Shown here piece by piece: positions 1 to 34,960 of a DNA stretch of 45,057 bases. Under the pieces are notes generated by a model. It was not told where the DNA came from, did no database searches, and worked only from the letters and a program-made list of their open reading frames with translations. The position numbers were made by a program, and so were the translations under genes. Position 1 is the stretch's first letter. The number at the start of each line of letters is the position of its first letter. The stretch is from the NCBI GenBank assembly GCA_019247695.1, contig JAFBAP010000154.1, forward strand, positions 1 through 45,057, in the 5' to 3' direction. Origin of the DNA: Verrucomicrobiota bacterium. GTDB lineage: Bacteria > Verrucomicrobiota > Verrucomicrobiia > Chthoniobacterales > JAFAMB01.

Positions 1-504
1 ACGACAGAGTTCACACGGCGAACACGGCGAGCCACGGCGACCACGGCGGGAAGAGGGGGAAAGAGTTCGGCGTTCGGGGCTCGGAGTTCGGAGGCGTCGT
101 AGAACCGGGTCCGATCTTCCCCGAAGGTCGCGCTCACCCGGCGGAAAGACAGAATCATCCGCAGAACACGCAGAAGAACGCAGAAAAGAGAAAACATCCA
201 CAGATTACACAGATTGACACAGATTAAGGGGATCTGGCGACAACTCAAAGGTTGACACTCGCACCCGCTCCCCATGCTGCCGCTCCGAACTCCGAACTCC
301 GAACTCCGAACTCCGAACTCCGAACTCCGAACTCCGAACTCCGAACTCCGAACCCTTTCCTCTTCCCGCCGTGTTCGCCGTGTGAACTCTTACGTGGTGG
401 CCGCCGTGTCCGCCGTGTGAACTCTGTCGTCGTGCCCGCTTTCTCCCGCTGCGGCCGCCGTGCGACCGAAAGCCTTGCAAGCCGTGGGATTAAGTCGATA
501 ATCG
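1..504. repeat. Mosaic intergenic repeat region upstream of the E1 alpha gene
   Basis: I see no credible gene here. The stretch is built from short repeat modules. Bases 7-49 are a 9-10 bp periodic tract (CACGGCGAA-like) identical over 43 bp to 18927-18969. Bases 63-90 are four in-phase heptamers (GAGTTCG type). Bases 139-186 and 195-227 are modules that recur at 18964-19012 and 18852-18886. Bases 284-353 are ten perfect TCCGAAC heptamers. About 357-475 is the inverted counterpart of the 9-bp tract. Predicted ORFs here translate only repeats. The promoter of the dehydrogenase operon must lie in or next to this mosaic, but no clear promoter is visible. Confidence 0.85.
284..353. repeat. Tandem heptamer array (TCCGAAC)x10
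   Basis: Ten uninterrupted copies of the 7-bp unit TCCGAAC span 70 bp. On the other strand the unit reads GAGTTCG. That matches the register of heptamer tracts elsewhere in the window (63-90, 11689-11716, 11849-11866, 29409-29513, 33851-33913). There are no spacers between units, so it is not a CRISPR array. Exact repetition suggests recent slippage expansion. Confidence 0.95.
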
Positions 505-18773: not shown

Positions 18774-19272
18774 ATCGCGGTTATCGCGCTATGTGCCGCG
18801 AAAAACAAATCGCTCCCGGCACGAAACAGCGCTGGCCCGTAAAACAGGAACCATCCACAGATTACACAAATTGACACAGATTAGGGTCACACGGCGGCCG
18901 CAGCGGGTGTGGCGGGCACAACGTAAGAGTTCACACGGCGAACACGGCGAGCCACGGCGACCACGGCGGAAAGACAGAATCATCCGCAGAACACGCAGAG
19001 AACGCAGAAAAAAAGATTACCAGACCCGGCGCCTCTTCATTTGTGGCATTTTTCCGCTTGTGGCATTCTCTGCCGCCCCGGACTCCGAACTCTTTCCCCC
19101 TCTTCCCGCCGTGGTCGCCGTGGTCCGCCGTGGTCCGCCGTGTTCGCCGTGTGAACTCTTACGTCGTGCCCGCCTTTTCGCTGTGCCCGCCGTGTGACCC
19201 GACACCCGACACCCGACACTCCTCTTTTCCATTTGTGGCATTTTTCGGCTCGTGGCATTTGTGGCATTTCAT
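18774..19272. repeat. Mosaic repeat region between divergent tmk and lpxD
   Basis: I see no gene in this 499-bp space. It holds the CCACAGATTACAC module at 18852-18886 and the 9-bp periodic tract at 18927-18969, identical over 43 bp to 7-49. A module at 18964-19012 matches 139-186. A TTGTGGCATT unit pair lies at 19038-19068, and the inverted 9-bp tract at about 19105-19190. Three to four C-rich heptamers span about 19198-19221, and another TGGCATTTG array at 19231-19270 ends three bases before the lpxD ATG. Both promoters must lie within repetitive DNA. Confidence 0.85.
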
Positions 19273-29090: not shown

Positions 29091-29414
29091 ATGGAAAAGG
29101 TGTATTACCAATGCCGGCGCTGCGCCAATTGTTGCCGTTGGCCGGGGTTCGTCCGAGTAACCGATCGCGAGATCGCAGCCATCGCGCGGCACCTTGGGAT
29201 CGACGAAGACGCCTTTATCCAGCGTTACACCCGTCTGCGGCCCGATCGCGACGGCTTGGCCTTGATCGATAAACCAAACGGCGAATGCTTTTTCCTGGAC
29301 GGCAACGTTTGTACGCTGCAACCGGTCAAGCCCGGGCAGTGCCGCGAGTTTCCGAACGGATGGAACTTTCCAGGCTGGCGGGACGTCTGCGAGGCCATCC
29401 CCATTAGAGAGTAA
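29091..29414 (+). CDS. YkgJ-family cysteine-cluster protein
   Basis: This 107-residue protein has the YkgJ (Fe-S or zinc) cysteine cluster. The N-terminal set is CRRCANCC at 8-15, followed by conserved cysteines in GECFFLDGNVCTL, GQCREFP and DVCEAIP. The spacing fits the family, whose members bind a metal centre of unknown role. It is divergent from the rhodanese-scaffold-sufT unit with a 114-bp gap, so a connection with Fe-S metabolism is plausible. Its TAA stop codon lies inside the first heptamer (GAGTAAC) of the adjacent repeat array. Confidence 0.9.
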   Translation: MEKVYYQCRRCANCCRWPGFVRVTDREIAAIARHLGIDEDAFIQRYTRLRPDRDGLALIDKPNGECFFLDGNVCTLQPVKPGQCREFPNGWNFPGWRDVCEAIPIRE

Positions 29415-29726
29415 CGGGTAACGGGTAACGGGTAACGGGTAACGGGTAACGAATAGCGGGTGTCGAGTGTCGAGTGTCGAGTGTCGAGTGTCGAGTGGCG
29501 GGTGGCGGGTGGCGCATCGAAGGCCACAAGCCGAAGTTGTACCCGGTGGAGAGTGCCGCGCGTCAGCCCAGGAAGAACTGTTCACCGGCGGTGTGGAATC
29601 GACGCCATGAGCATGAGCCGTCGACGTCACCCCTCCGCGGCATTTACTCAACGCGACACCCGACACCCGACACCCGTCACCCGCCACTCTCCTCCATTTG
29701 TGGCATTTTTCCGCTTGTGGCATTTG
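29409..29726 (+). repeat. Composite repeat element, copy A (left of the glycan block)
   Basis: The element has four parts. First come fifteen in-phase heptamers at 29409-29513 (GAGTAAC, five GGGTAAC, GAATAGC, GGGTGTC, four GAGTGTC, GAGTGGC, two GGGTGGC). A core follows at about 29524-29655. C-rich heptamers at about 29652-29688 are the complement of GGGTGTC-type units. Last is the TTGTGGCATTTTTCCGC module at 29696-29726. The core recurs inverted at about 33910-34086. The left end includes the YkgJ stop codon, and the right end lies one base from the stop codon of the minus-strand GT2 gene. Confidence 0.88.
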
Positions 29727-29727
29727 C

Positions 29728-30486
29728 TCAGCGGTGGAACGGGTAATCGTGCATCGTGCGCCAGACCCGGCCACGCATCGAGACGATTTCCGCCAGCATG
29801 CCCAGGCTGTCGCGGATCACGCGAACCTTTGAATCGGGCGAGTTGGACCAGTGTACCGGCATTTCGCGGATGGAAAATCCCATCGCGCGAGCCAGCAGCA
29901 GGACCTCGACGTCGAACGAAAAACCGTCCGTTTGTTGCCGGCTGAAAATTTCACGCGCGGCGGTTTGCCGGAAGCCTTTGAAGCCGCACTGCGTGTCCTC
30001 CAGGTCCAGACCGGCCAGGACTTGAACGAGGCGGTTGAAGGTCTGCCCCATCCGTTCGCGTAACGGGCTTTGCCGGTGCAGGATGCGGCTCTGCGGATGC
30101 CGGCGGCTCCCCACAACCACGTCGATCCTTGGATTTTGCTCAAAAATGCGGAGCGCAGTTTCCAGGTCTGAGAGCGGGGTACTCAGGTCTGCGTCGGTGA
30201 AGAAAACGAGTGGCGCCCGGGCCTTCAGCATGCCGGTGCGGACCGCGTACCCTTTTCCCCGGTGCATCTCGTTTGCGATCACCCGGAGCTCCGGAATTCG
30301 TGTTTGCGCCGACTTTGCCACTTCCAAAGTCGCGTCCGGACTCGGTTCGATCACGAGCAAGACCTCGGTGGGAAAGGTCCACTTCGCGGCGTACTCGTGT
30401 ACAACCGACAAGGTCTTCGGCAAACGTAGGGCCTCTTTATACGCAGGGATGATGAGAGAAAGGTACGGCCGAAACTGTTTGGACAT
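29728..30486 (-). CDS. Family 2 glycosyltransferase (polyprenyl-phosphate glucosyltransferase-like)
   Basis: This 252-residue GT-A enzyme is predicted to transfer a sugar from a nucleotide sugar, most likely to polyprenyl phosphate. It starts SLIIPAYKEALRLPKTL (about 10-26). The metal-binding DxD is DAD at 98-100 in VFFTDADLSTP. DTQCGFKGFRQTAAREIF is typical of dolichyl-phosphate beta-glucosyltransferase relatives. No membrane segments are evident. It is divergent from the Agl23-like gene with only 47 bases between start codons. Such a lipid-linked sugar would be the donor for a GT-C enzyme like its neighbour. This link is inference. Confidence 0.9.
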   Translation of the reverse strand: MSKQFRPYLSLIIPAYKEALRLPKTLSVVHEYAAKWTFPTEVLLVIEPSPDATLEVAKSAQTRIPELRVIANEMHRGKGYAVRTGMLKARAPLVFFTDADLSTPLSDLETALRIFEQNPRIDVVVGSRRHPQSRILHRQSPLRERMGQTFNRLVQVLAGLDLEDTQCGFKGFRQTAAREIFSRQQTDGFSFDVEVLLLARAMGFSIREMPVHWSNSPDSKVRVIRDSLGMLAEIVSMRGRVWRTMHDYPFHR

Positions 30487-32117: not shown

Positions 32118-33832
32118 GGTCCCTCGCTGCGGTTCTGAACTGGATCACGCTCGCCACGCTTCTCGGCCTCGCATTTGCGTTCACCCCCCTCCGCCTTACC
32201 ATGGCAACCTCGGCGGCCGCGCTGGCGGCTGCTCTCGTGGTCGTCATCGCTTCCTGCCTGCAGCGCCGCCGGCCGCAGATCCCTTGCCGGCAGCAACCGG
32301 ACATAGTTTGGCCGGCGATGATTCTCATTTTCGCCGCGTTCGCCCTGCGTGCATTCTTGGATAATGTCTTCGTCGCAGACGACTCCGTGTGCGTGCTTTC
32401 TCCTAACAACCTTGGGGACGCCTGCCTGCATCTCACGCAGATTAACTTTCTGGCGCGAGGACCCGCTTTCTGGCCGGCAAACCCGATTTTCGCTTTCGAC
32501 AAACTTCATTACCCGCTCGGCATAAACCTTTTTAATGCCGAACTGAAGCTGCTCGGAATTACTCCGCGGGCAGGTATCGTGCTGGTCGGCCTGCTCGGTT
32601 CGGTGCTGACCCTCTGCGCGCTCCTGAAGTTTAACGGCCCGTTCGGGGTCGCCGCTTTCTTATTCAACGGGGGCCTGATCGGCTTCACCATTTTTCACAC
32701 GCTCACCTGGAAAGATTATCAGGCCGAGGTGGCCTGGAAGGCGATTCCGCTGGCCATGTTTGTGACCCAGCGCGGCCTCTTGTACGCCATCCCGGTCGGC
32801 TTGCTCCTCCTGACCCATTGGCGTTCGCTCTTCTTCGAGCCGCAGCCCGGGAGCACGCTGCCGTTTTGGACGGAGTGCCTGCTCTACTGCAGCTTGCCGC
32901 TGTTTCATCTGCACACGTTCCTTTTCCTGTCGTGGTTTCTGCTTTGCTGGTTTCTCTTCGGTGATCCGCGCTGGAGACGGCACGTGTTTCGGCTGGTCCT
33001 GGTCTCCTTCCTCCCGTCCACCCTCCTCGTTTATTTCGTGACCGGATTTGAGAAGACAAATTCGCTGGGCTGGTGCCCGGGGTGGATGGCAAAGCCCGGC
33101 GAGCCTGCCTGGCAGTTCTGGCTGGTCAACTTCGGGTTGTTCCTGCCGCTTACCGCTGCGCTCCTGATTTATTTGATCAGGCCGACGCCACCCATCGACC
33201 GGCAGGAACGCAGGCTGTTGCGGCTGTTCGCGTTCCCGGCCGCCGGCGTCCTGCTGGCCTGCACTTTCATCAAGTTTGCGCCTTGGGAATGGGATAACAC
33301 GAAGCTGATTTTCTGGGCCTACATCGTGCTGATGTTTTGCCTCTGGCGCGCTTTTCTGGCCCACTGGCCGGTCTGGCTTCGGGTCCCGACCATCATCATC
33401 CTCTTTTTCTCCGGCTTTGTCAGCGTGGCCGGCGACGCCGTCAGCACCCCCCGGGGAGGTTACGAAATCGGGGTGGCACCGGAATGGAAGTCAGTGGAAG
33501 AAGCCTTGAAGCAAACCTCCCCGGAAGCCGTGTTCGCCGGTTACCCGACTTACAACCATCCCGTGCTCGTCACCGGTCACCGGATGGTCATGGGGTTCCC
33601 GGGACACCTCTGGAGCCATGGCCTCGACTATCGTTCGACGGAAATCGACCTGAATTCGTTCATGGCAGGCAGCCCGGAGTGGCGTCAGATCGCCCAACGG
33701 CTCCGTATCGATTACCTGTTCTGGGGCAATTTCGAGCAGCGGGAGTACCCCCAGTCCACACGCCCCTGGGAAAAAGAATGCCCGGTAATTGCTGAAGGCG
33801 ACTGGGGCAGGGTTTTTGCCGTCCGAAAGTAG
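32114..33832 (+). CDS. Polytopic membrane protein, GT-C-like architecture
   Basis: This 572-residue membrane protein has about ten hydrophobic segments and a soluble C-terminal domain (from about residue 455: GGYEIGVAPEWKSVEEALKQ). I do not recognise a named family. The first extracytoplasmic loop has FVADDSVCVLSPNNLGDACLH, where paired acidic residues are in the place expected for GT-C enzymes. Together with its overlap (ATGA) with the Agl23-like gene, this suggests a glycosyltransferase or polysaccharide-related role. The TAG stop is followed immediately by the inverted end of repeat element B. Confidence 0.75.
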   Translation: MRSLAAVLNWITLATLLGLAFAFTPLRLTMATSAAALAAALVVVIASCLQRRRPQIPCRQQPDIVWPAMILIFAAFALRAFLDNVFVADDSVCVLSPNNLGDACLHLTQINFLARGPAFWPANPIFAFDKLHYPLGINLFNAELKLLGITPRAGIVLVGLLGSVLTLCALLKFNGPFGVAAFLFNGGLIGFTIFHTLTWKDYQAEVAWKAIPLAMFVTQRGLLYAIPVGLLLLTHWRSLFFEPQPGSTLPFWTECLLYCSLPLFHLHTFLFLSWFLLCWFLFGDPRWRRHVFRLVLVSFLPSTLLVYFVTGFEKTNSLGWCPGWMAKPGEPAWQFWLVNFGLFLPLTAALLIYLIRPTPPIDRQERRLLRLFAFPAAGVLLACTFIKFAPWEWDNTKLIFWAYIVLMFCLWRAFLAHWPVWLRVPTIIILFFSGFVSVAGDAVSTPRGGYEIGVAPEWKSVEEALKQTSPEAVFAGYPTYNHPVLVTGHRMVMGFPGHLWSHGLDYRSTEIDLNSFMAGSPEWRQIAQRLRIDYLFWGNFEQREYPQSTRPWEKECPVIAEGDWGRVFAVRK

Positions 33833-34166
33833 AATGCCGCAAATGGATGAGGGTAACGGGTAACAAGTAACGGGTAACAAGTAACGGGTAACGGGTAGCG
33901 GGTGCCGGGTGCCGCGTCGAGTAAATGCCGCGGAGGGGTGACTTCGACGGCTCGTGCTCACGGCGTTGATTCCATACCGCCGGTGAGGGACGGGCGGGGG
34001 GGCGTCGAGGCCTCCAAGTCATTCCCGGCAATTCTTCCTGGGCTGACGCGCGGCACTCTCTACCGGGAACAACTTCGGCTTGTGGTCTTCCACCCGACAC
34101 CCGACGCCCGGCACCCGTTACCCGCCACCCTCTTCCATTTGTGGCATTCTCCGCCGCGGCATTCCC
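33833..34166 (-). repeat. Composite repeat element, copy B (right of the glycan block, inverted)
   Basis: The order matches copy A when read on the minus strand. The outer end is AATGCCACAAATGGAAGAG (about 34129-34147), followed by G-rich heptamers (34090-34131). The core lies at about 33910-34086 and has about 41 extra bases compared with copy A. Nine heptamers follow at 33851-33913 (GGGTAAC, AAGTAAC, GGGTAGC, GGGTGCC on the plus strand). The inner end is AATGCCGCAAATGGATGAG (33834-33852). The two ends are inverted copies of each other. It fills the space between two convergent genes and contains no credible ORF. Confidence 0.88.
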
Positions 34167-34174
34167 TTCGTCCG

Positions 34175-34960
34175 TCACGGCAGCAGGACCAACTGTTCCA
34201 GGCGCGCTTTCTGGTTCACAAAATACGGAATGCCGTAGCCGCGTTCGACGTGGCCGCGGCCGGTCAGGACAACCACTTTGGTCTGGGGCTCGCGCGCGTG
34301 GAAGTCCAGGATCACACTTGCCATGGTTTGATCCCAGAGACTCTGAGCCTTGAAAAACCGTCTCAATGAATTCGTGTCCATTCCGGGGTGCGCGCCCATC
34401 ATCCGGCTAAAATTACGAAAGGCCCCTTCATCGGTGGAAAACCCGCGTGGCACCTCCGCTGCTTCGGCGGGCGTCATTTGGATTCCCTGGCTGACCTTGT
34501 GCGCCAAAGCCGGCCGGGCATTCAAGGCAAGGTTGCGAATCCCGAACCGGCGCGTCTCGTCCAGAATCCGGCCGTACCACGGCGAGTAGACTGCCCAGGC
34601 GCGCTGGAAACCGGTCTGTTGAAACAGCTGGGCCCGGGTCAACCGTCCACGCTGCCACGCATCGAGAACAGGCTGCTGGGAGCGGTCGAACATCTCCCAA
34701 CCGACTACAAAAGGGACCCTGTTCCGGGCAAGGATCTCAATCAGGCGGCCCTCGAACCTGTGATCGCCCGGACGGTCATGGATTTCGCCGACGTAGATCG
34801 CCTCGGCACGACTCAAAGCCTGCCGGAACCCGGCGTCCTTGCCCGCCAGGGATGCAGGCGTCACGCCGGCCAGCACACGAGTGCCGGAGGCTTCCTGTGC
34901 GGATGCGCCGGGCAGGGGCAGCAAAATGACGGCTGAAAGCACAAGCGCGAGAAATCGCAT
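34175..34960 (-). CDS. ChaN-like exported protein (Tiki/ChaN haem-binding superfamily)
   Basis: This 261-residue exported protein has a signal peptide at residues 1-22 (MRFLALVLSAVILLPLPGAS). It ends in ASA-type cleavage rather than a lipobox. The ChaN/TraB/Tiki signature is YVGEIHDRPGDHRFE (about 44-58), followed by VVGWEMFDRSQQPVL. VVLTGRGHVERGYGIPYF near the C-terminus supplies the second conserved Gly-His segment. Members of this superfamily bind haem or act as metalloproteases. ATG 34960 gives the cleanest signal peptide; 34972 adds four residues. It is divergent from lpdA with a 72-bp gap. Confidence 0.85.
   Translation of the reverse strand: MRFLALVLSAVILLPLPGASAQEASGTRVLAGVTPASLAGKDAGFRQALSRAEAIYVGEIHDRPGDHRFEGRLIEILARNRVPFVVGWEMFDRSQQPVLDAWQRGRLTRAQLFQQTGFQRAWAVYSPWYGRILDETRRFGIRNLALNARPALAHKVSQGIQMTPAEAAEVPRGFSTDEGAFRNFSRMMGAHPGMDTNSLRRFFKAQSLWDQTMASVILDFHAREPQTKVVVLTGRGHVERGYGIPYFVNQKARLEQLVLLP

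Follow-up and report, generated by a model that had tools for sequence, protein, structure and literature searches.

The heptamer array at 29409-29513 forms one arm of a palindromic, non-coding element, here called W, that is dispersed in the genome of a soil verrucomicrobial bacterium, and a chance origin of the array is excluded. The genome (G000) is a draft metagenome assembly of 5.19 Mb in 191 contigs, and the window, that is, the whole 45,057-nucleotide stretch that was analysed, contains two of about a dozen W copies. On the evidence set out below, we consider it probable that the array is a W arm that inherited its order of units, that its blocks have changed in length by slippage, and that the intergenic gaps holding such arms are old palindromic sites whose interiors have been replaced or inserted into.

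Tiling of the array returned exactly the 15 heptamers without phase slip that a sequence-only reading of this DNA had described: GAGTAAC, five GGGTAAC, GAATAGC, GGGTGTC, four GAGTGTC, GAGTGGC and two GGGTGGC, with the consensus GRRTRNC and 7 bp to each unit. TRF also detects the array, divided over several rows. That reading had overlooked the inverted partner array, the repeated core between both arrays and a second complete W element in the window at 33833-34148 (Table 1). The 140 bp between the arrays at 29409 and 29655 match, reversed, the DNA between the arrays at 33851 and 34091, and by blastn this core matches the L069/L160 copy at 88% and the copy at 33915 at 70%. The W copy at 29409 is of the short form, lies in minus orientation and has lost its left outer shell. 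Four more period-7 stretches of the GGGTAAC-type unit family occur in the window, at 19197, 29654, 33851 and 34091, and the GGAGTTC array at 283 belongs to the same genome-wide phenomenon, outside the W elements. In addition, nested degenerate repeats of 9-10 bp (CACACGGCG, CGCAGAACACGCAG and CACAGATTACACAGATT) were seen at 18848-19269 and 142-439 of the window and at many other loci, where they form further palindrome layers round a core of about 140 bp with dozens of matches in the genome sample.

Table 1. Coordinates of the W elements, their neighbouring genes and the second heptamer family in the window
Feature	Position	Strand	Remark
Ten-unit GGAGTTC array (+ strand CTCCGAA)	283..353	-	other heptamer family
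CxxCxxCC-domain protein gene	29091..29414	+	own gene calls
Left heptamer arm, 15 units (GAGTAAC ... GGGTGGC)	29409..29513	+	3' arm of minus-strand W copy
Core, short subfamily of about 138 bp	29514..29653	-	blastn to other copies
Inverted heptamer arm on the right, minus-strand units GAGTGGC GGGTGAC GGGTGTC x3	29655..29689	-	
Outer shell AATGCCACAAGCGGAAAAATGCCACAAATGGAGGAGAGTG	29685..29726	-	left counterpart absent; shell at same site in G001
Family 2 glycosyltransferase gene	29728..30486	-	convergent neighbour
Left outer shell AATGCCGCAAATGGATGA, second W copy	33833..33850	+	directly 3' of stop codon
Left heptamer arm of 9 units, second W copy, from GGGTAAC/AAGTAAC to GGGTGCC	33851..33913	+	
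Core, second W copy, long 176-bp subfamily	33915..34090	+	
Right heptamer arm, second W copy	34091..34130	-	
Right outer shell, second W copy	34126..34148	-	

The element has the layout AATGCCACAAATGGAAGAGAGTGGC-(GGGTAAC)n-[GAATRSC]-(GGGTGTC-type)n-core, followed by the same arms inverted. Its outer shell carries AATGCCACAAATGG, and each arm runs from GAGTGGC through a GGGTAAC block and, often, a GAAT-type unit to a block of GGGTGTC, GGGTGCC or GGGTGGC. The core occurs in a long form of 176 bp and a short form about 38 bp shorter. Searching the whole genome with the core gave 13 matches, 8 near-complete and 5 partial; because two of the five partial matches come from one copy, we count about 12 copies, which are roughly 150-370 bp long and lie at different, unlinked intergenic sites. 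The core matches are flanked by heptamer arms and, in most copies, also by the shell, and most copies carry AATGCCACAAATGGAAGAGAGTGGC-like terminal inverted repeats. The same core search found no match in G001, a species of the same genus, or in genomes G003, G007, G009 and G010.

The order of the units in the arms links the window array to the other copies. From the outside towards the core, TA-type units come before TG-type ones in all 14 W arms that have both (p=1e-4), and inner units are TG-type in 34 of the 41 runs of the genome sample (p=2.5e-5). The rare GAAT-type unit makes up 7 of 146 W-arm units but only 1 of 482 other units (p=2e-4), and the lone case outside W is a right arm of W type in which an element of the GGAGTTC family has taken the place of the interior. 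Units like the GAATAGC of the window array, namely GAATGGC, GAATGCC, GAATAGC and GAATGTA, occur in a further six W arms at a distance of nought to two units from the core; in the window array GAATAGC lies further out because the inner block there has grown to eight units. Since W copies at unlinked loci have this order in common, the change along the array was inherited from a founder arm. The changing unit thus reflects common descent of the arm, an account that does not extend to the choice of period 7 itself, whereas block lengths such as the four GAGTGTC units are probably local and fit slippage. The sequence-only reading had proposed a heptamer family comparable to known repeats elsewhere and had argued that a fixed period combined with a changing unit suggests selection or a mechanism that copies seven-base blocks. 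A genome-wide family does exist; a need for selection or special seven-base copying at this array is not supported, given that TA-type units stand outside TG-type ones in every informative W arm and that the GAAT-type unit is shared.

The extent of the phenomenon was assessed in a 1.07-Mb sample and by pattern searches over the whole genome. About one-third of the sample came from GGGTAAC-bearing contigs, which biases array density somewhat upward, and the remaining two-thirds or so was picked by contig number; genes were called in-house. In this sample 141 period-7 segments scored at least 14, against none in a first-order Markov control, and the remaining periods between 4 and 12 summed to 32 segments (Markov sequence, zero); periods other than 7 stayed near zero, except for its multiples and a weak 9/19 family. 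The possibility raised earlier, that period-7 tracts are no more common than in shuffled intergenic DNA, does not hold, as 102 intergenic arrays stand against none in 20 dinucleotide-preserving shuffles. Only 2 of the 141 arrays overlap a called gene by more than 20 bp. Over the 5.19-Mb genome, GGGTAACGGGTAAC occurs 366 times, and the reversed control gave no occurrence. The units fall into two families, GGGTAAC/GGGTGTC/GAGTAAC and GGAGTTC/GGCGTTC/GGGGTTC. Contig ends often lie inside heptamer arrays (L059, L061, L071, L075, L085, L088 and L089), and because the assembly breaks within them, both the number and the length of the arrays are underestimated.

The arrays obey a common rule of orientation, running from the edge of the gap towards its centre regardless of the strands of the neighbouring genes. 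Doublets of the GGGTAAC family point inward in 68 cases and outward in 7 (p=1e-13), and among neighbouring arrays within 600 bp there were 14 '+-' arrangements and no '-+'. The GGGTAAC family occurs at both sides of 14 gaps (3.0 expected) and the GGAGTTC family at both sides of 8 (0.95 expected). More generally, the left and right halves of 54 gaps are complementary at an arm score of at least 16, as opposed to none in shuffles, and GC skew flips sign near mid-gap whether the gap is codirectional, convergent or divergent. The motifs are also nested in a preferred order: the shell lies outside GGGTAAC in 21 of 24 cases, GGGTAAC outside GGAGTTC in 14 of 16 and outside CACGGCG in 19 of 21, CACGGCG outside CGCAGA in 22 of 28, and CGCAGA outside CACAGATTA in 21 of 25. 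The nesting, or part of it, may reflect how a composite element is built internally and not the age of the insertions. Correction of one arm by the other is weakly supported at best and was rejected as the main force, for the arms of one gap are only slightly closer to each other than to arms of different gaps (similarity 24.1 versus 20.6, and 44.3 versus 33.6).

Comparison with G001 (3.8 Mb), in which the flanking coding DNA is about 85% identical, shows that the outer layers are common to the sister species and the inner ones mostly not. From outside inward, the counts in G000 and G001 are 223 and 181 for the shell, 366 and 51 for GGGTAAC, 114 and 4 for GGGTGTC, 782 and 0 for GGAGTTC, and 13 and 0 for the W core. 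The G001 counterpart of the window locus lacks the left array and has the shell alone, with about three units surviving as a degenerate trace on the right side, in about 120 bp instead of 290; a comparison of the same locus in relatives had been suggested by the sequence-only reading, and at orthologous loci unit number indeed varies between them. Where copy L157 lies, as well as at L113/L026 and L124/L027, both species keep the shell round unrelated interiors, and at the L186/L082 site a shell palindrome in G001 corresponds to a GGAGTTC palindrome in G000. Among 25 differing orthologous gaps, most interiors have no detectable similarity. At another point of comparison between L082 (7395-7746) and L186 (10477), the orthologous gap measures 351 bp versus 0 bp and carries extra shell motifs, and part of an apparent short coding region at the L082/L186 site is absent from G001. 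The motif GGAGTTCGGAGTTC, found 782 times in G000 and not at all in G001, nevertheless occurs 11 and 7 times in G007 and G009, which belong to a different genus. In a genome of another genus (g3, L178), GGAGTTC palindromes show a mirrored unit change, with AGGAGTC outside AGGAGTT on both arms. Period 7, with other units, is also preferred in genomes sampled from the same family and at loci of Acidobacteriota; at L047, L140 and L150, which are loci of Acidobacteriota and family relatives, the units are TGGTCAA/CATTGAC, AATAGCA/TTTGCTA and GTGATAG/AATCACC, with inverted pairs among the arrays.

The same locus illustrates how the repeats meet the genes beside them. The stop codon TAA (29412-29414) of the CxxCxxCC-domain gene sits within the first heptamer, as GAG-TAA-C, in G000, and the orthologous gene takes its stop from the shell motif in G001. 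Genes can therefore take a stop codon from a repeat element. Of the 47 arrays nearest a gene 3' end, 19 overlap the called stop, and the repeat may often supply it.

These observations suggest the following history. The W copies inherited their order of units from a founder arm. Unit number would then shift by 7-bp slippage inside blocks of equal units, and phase would be kept because such slippage moves in 7-bp steps within blocks. The intergenic gaps of the genus may be long-lived palindrome sites with old outer layers, whose interiors are replaced or inserted into through copying of whole palindromes and recombination between shared arms; central insertion or ectopic exchange would bring in the new interior, and the arms would lengthen afterwards. 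We infer that W has no dedicated host function. Any such function would be secondary; the long stem may incidentally serve as a bidirectional terminator or stabiliser of mRNA 3' ends.

Several other explanations deserve consideration. A plain local microsatellite, in which a chance seed slipped on site and point mutations changed the units, would account for the blocks of identical units and for length differences between copies and species that resemble slippage; however, it is very unlikely, as the unit order, including the rare GAAT-type unit, recurs elsewhere beside the same core, and an inverted partner and a common orientation rule are unexpected from independent local events. Selection of GGGTAAC arrays for a G-quadruplex controlling transcription, replication or mRNA stability, as considered for GGGNATC repeats, draws on the four G-tracts present as a sequence motif in 44 of 78 GGGTAAC-family arrays, on the five consecutive GGGTAAC units of the window array and on the position of these arrays, since a 3' end is the closest gene boundary for 47 of 63 and lies within 30 bp for 38; Rehm 2015 (PMC4692102) showed that similar heptamers form quadruplexes in vitro. 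Yet GGG is missing from 7 of the 15 heptamers at 29409-29513, and the GGAGTTC family, nearly as numerous and following the same inward rule, has the motif in only 1 of 63 arrays. We regard this explanation as decidedly improbable, and as the general reason for the arrays it is rejected because the GGAGTTC family does not fit. Selection for a bidirectional terminator or mRNA 3'-end stabiliser, with arms kept complementary for an RNA stem, seems improbable as well, if a little less so. GGGTAAC arrays lie between convergent genes in 23 of 63 cases and between divergent genes in 5 of 63, 19 arrays overlap a called stop codon, and the second window copy (33830-34180) folds far better than shuffles (z -5.5). 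The copy at 29409, however, folds only slightly better than shuffles (z -1.8), GGAGTTC arrays show no comparable gene preference, the core is almost without covariation, and avoidance of promoters by any inserted DNA would yield an equal bias. A terminator role is accordingly possible for stable copies and weak for the copy at 29409.

Movement of a MITE- or REP-like element, with AATGCCACAAATGG as the terminal inverted repeat on which a transposase acts and the heptamers just subterminal, is a reading to which we give some weight while judging it unlikely. Terminal inverted repeats, a core that is uniform and the spread of the copies over different intergenic sites are all as such an element would have them. 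Against it, the shell is found at orthologous G001 sites with a different interior and is therefore not just carried along by the core; a search that covered Y1 transposases found none that matched, and inspection of the W-copy flanks by eye showed no clear target-site duplication. Nor did the W ends, read by eye, carry a consistent GTAG or CGTC tag. Mobilisation of the REP/RAYT kind was rejected: two Y1 transposase genes (PF01797) are present, and the surrounding 2-3 kb contain no heptamer or shell motif, only isolated CACGGCG.

Two further candidates were set aside. An origin by reverse transcriptase, through telomerase-like tandem synthesis, seems unlikely, as the sole reverse transcriptase match of the genome (G000 C164:16892-17523) is split and interrupted by an in-frame TAG, with no repeats beside it. 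A structured RNA was rejected, and an RNA role of the core is not supported: Rfam gave no match at the array and only three tRNAs in the window, and compensatory pairing is almost absent, the consensus fold of eight W cores showing two-sided change in 2 of 49 pairs.

Heptamer repeats are over-represented in many bacteria. W can be delimited as an element; it is present about a dozen times, conserves its order of units and can be compared with a close relative, so that copying, slippage and replacement can be distinguished. We also put forward, as a rather doubtful extension of the preferred history of inherited arms and old palindromic gaps, that intergenic DNA of this genus grows from inside, with palindromes as stable landing sites and new layers entering at the centre, at the tip of a hairpin or cruciform. 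If this were true, the order of nesting and the loss of sharing from shell to core would amount to a stratigraphy in which outer heptamers represent older rounds. If the nested-layer reading is correct, it would also offer one explanation for the inward orientation of heptamers in Xanthomonas and Nostoc.

Literature searches returned nothing on the unit sequences and nothing relevant on heptamers in Verrucomicrobia. Among dispersed elements, W resembles REP/BIME and MITE sequences in being non-coding, palindromic and intergenic, and differs in that its stem arms are heptamer arrays of variable length; a REP is a palindrome of 20-40 bp with a GTAG or CGTC tag, whereas W is roughly 150-370 bp with heptamer arms. 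The sequence-only reading had likened the array to the STRRs of filamentous cyanobacteria as a comparable but different family, a likeness that stands: both have heptamers with degenerate units, and in the tRNA-Leu intron the P6b stem consists of complementary heptamer arms with gains and losses of 7 nt (Kaasalainen 2015, PMC4476775). In the available text of that source, the STRR units are TDNGATT and NNTGAGT and P6b lies inside an intron with no W-like core, while the host here belongs to the Verrucomicrobiota. For a protein encoded in the neighbourhood, the nearest named relatives come from MAGs of Verrucomicrobiota and the Chthoniobacter group. The TAACTGA heptamers of Beggiatoaceae, Cyanobacteria and Bacteroidetes (MacGregor 2015, PMC4679880) are also intergenic direct repeats, sometimes with mixed units and with 7-nt indels between strains. 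In the Beggiatoaceae genome most of them sit immediately 5' of start codons, and 169 direct sets were counted but a single indirect repeat; the GGGTAAC arrays, by contrast, have another unit, are found mainly at the 3' ends of genes and frequently form inverted pairs.

The closest known heptamers are those of Rehm 2015 (PMC4692102), GGGAATC in Xanthomonas and GGGGA(C/T)T in Nostoc. According to the accessible parts of that report, they occupy many intergenic sites, with their G strand directed away from the closest ORF, whichever strand that ORF is on; they form 70 and 75 convergent inverted pairs in two Xanthomonas genomes and few in Nostoc, are scarce between divergent genes, and vary in unit number at the same sites among related genomes. 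In those parts no function was found for GGGAATC-type heptamers and the orientation rule was reported without explanation. The arrays described here share with them the G-rich intergenic units of 7 bp, the inward rule, the presence of convergent pairs, the scarcity between divergent genes and a unit number that varies between relatives at corresponding sites. They differ in phylum and in their units (GGGTAAC, GGGTGTC, GGAGTTC and variants rather than GGGNATC or GGGGA(C/T)T), in having a second family that lacks G-tracts and follows the same orientation rule, and in the combination of a core-and-shell element, a unit order kept between copies and nested layers. A repeated core, an inherited unit order and nested layers are not described in the available portions of PMC4692102, PMC4679880 and PMC4476775. 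As measured against these portions, the W arrays belong to the known kind of G-rich intergenic heptamers, to which they add the core, the order of units and the layers as new features.
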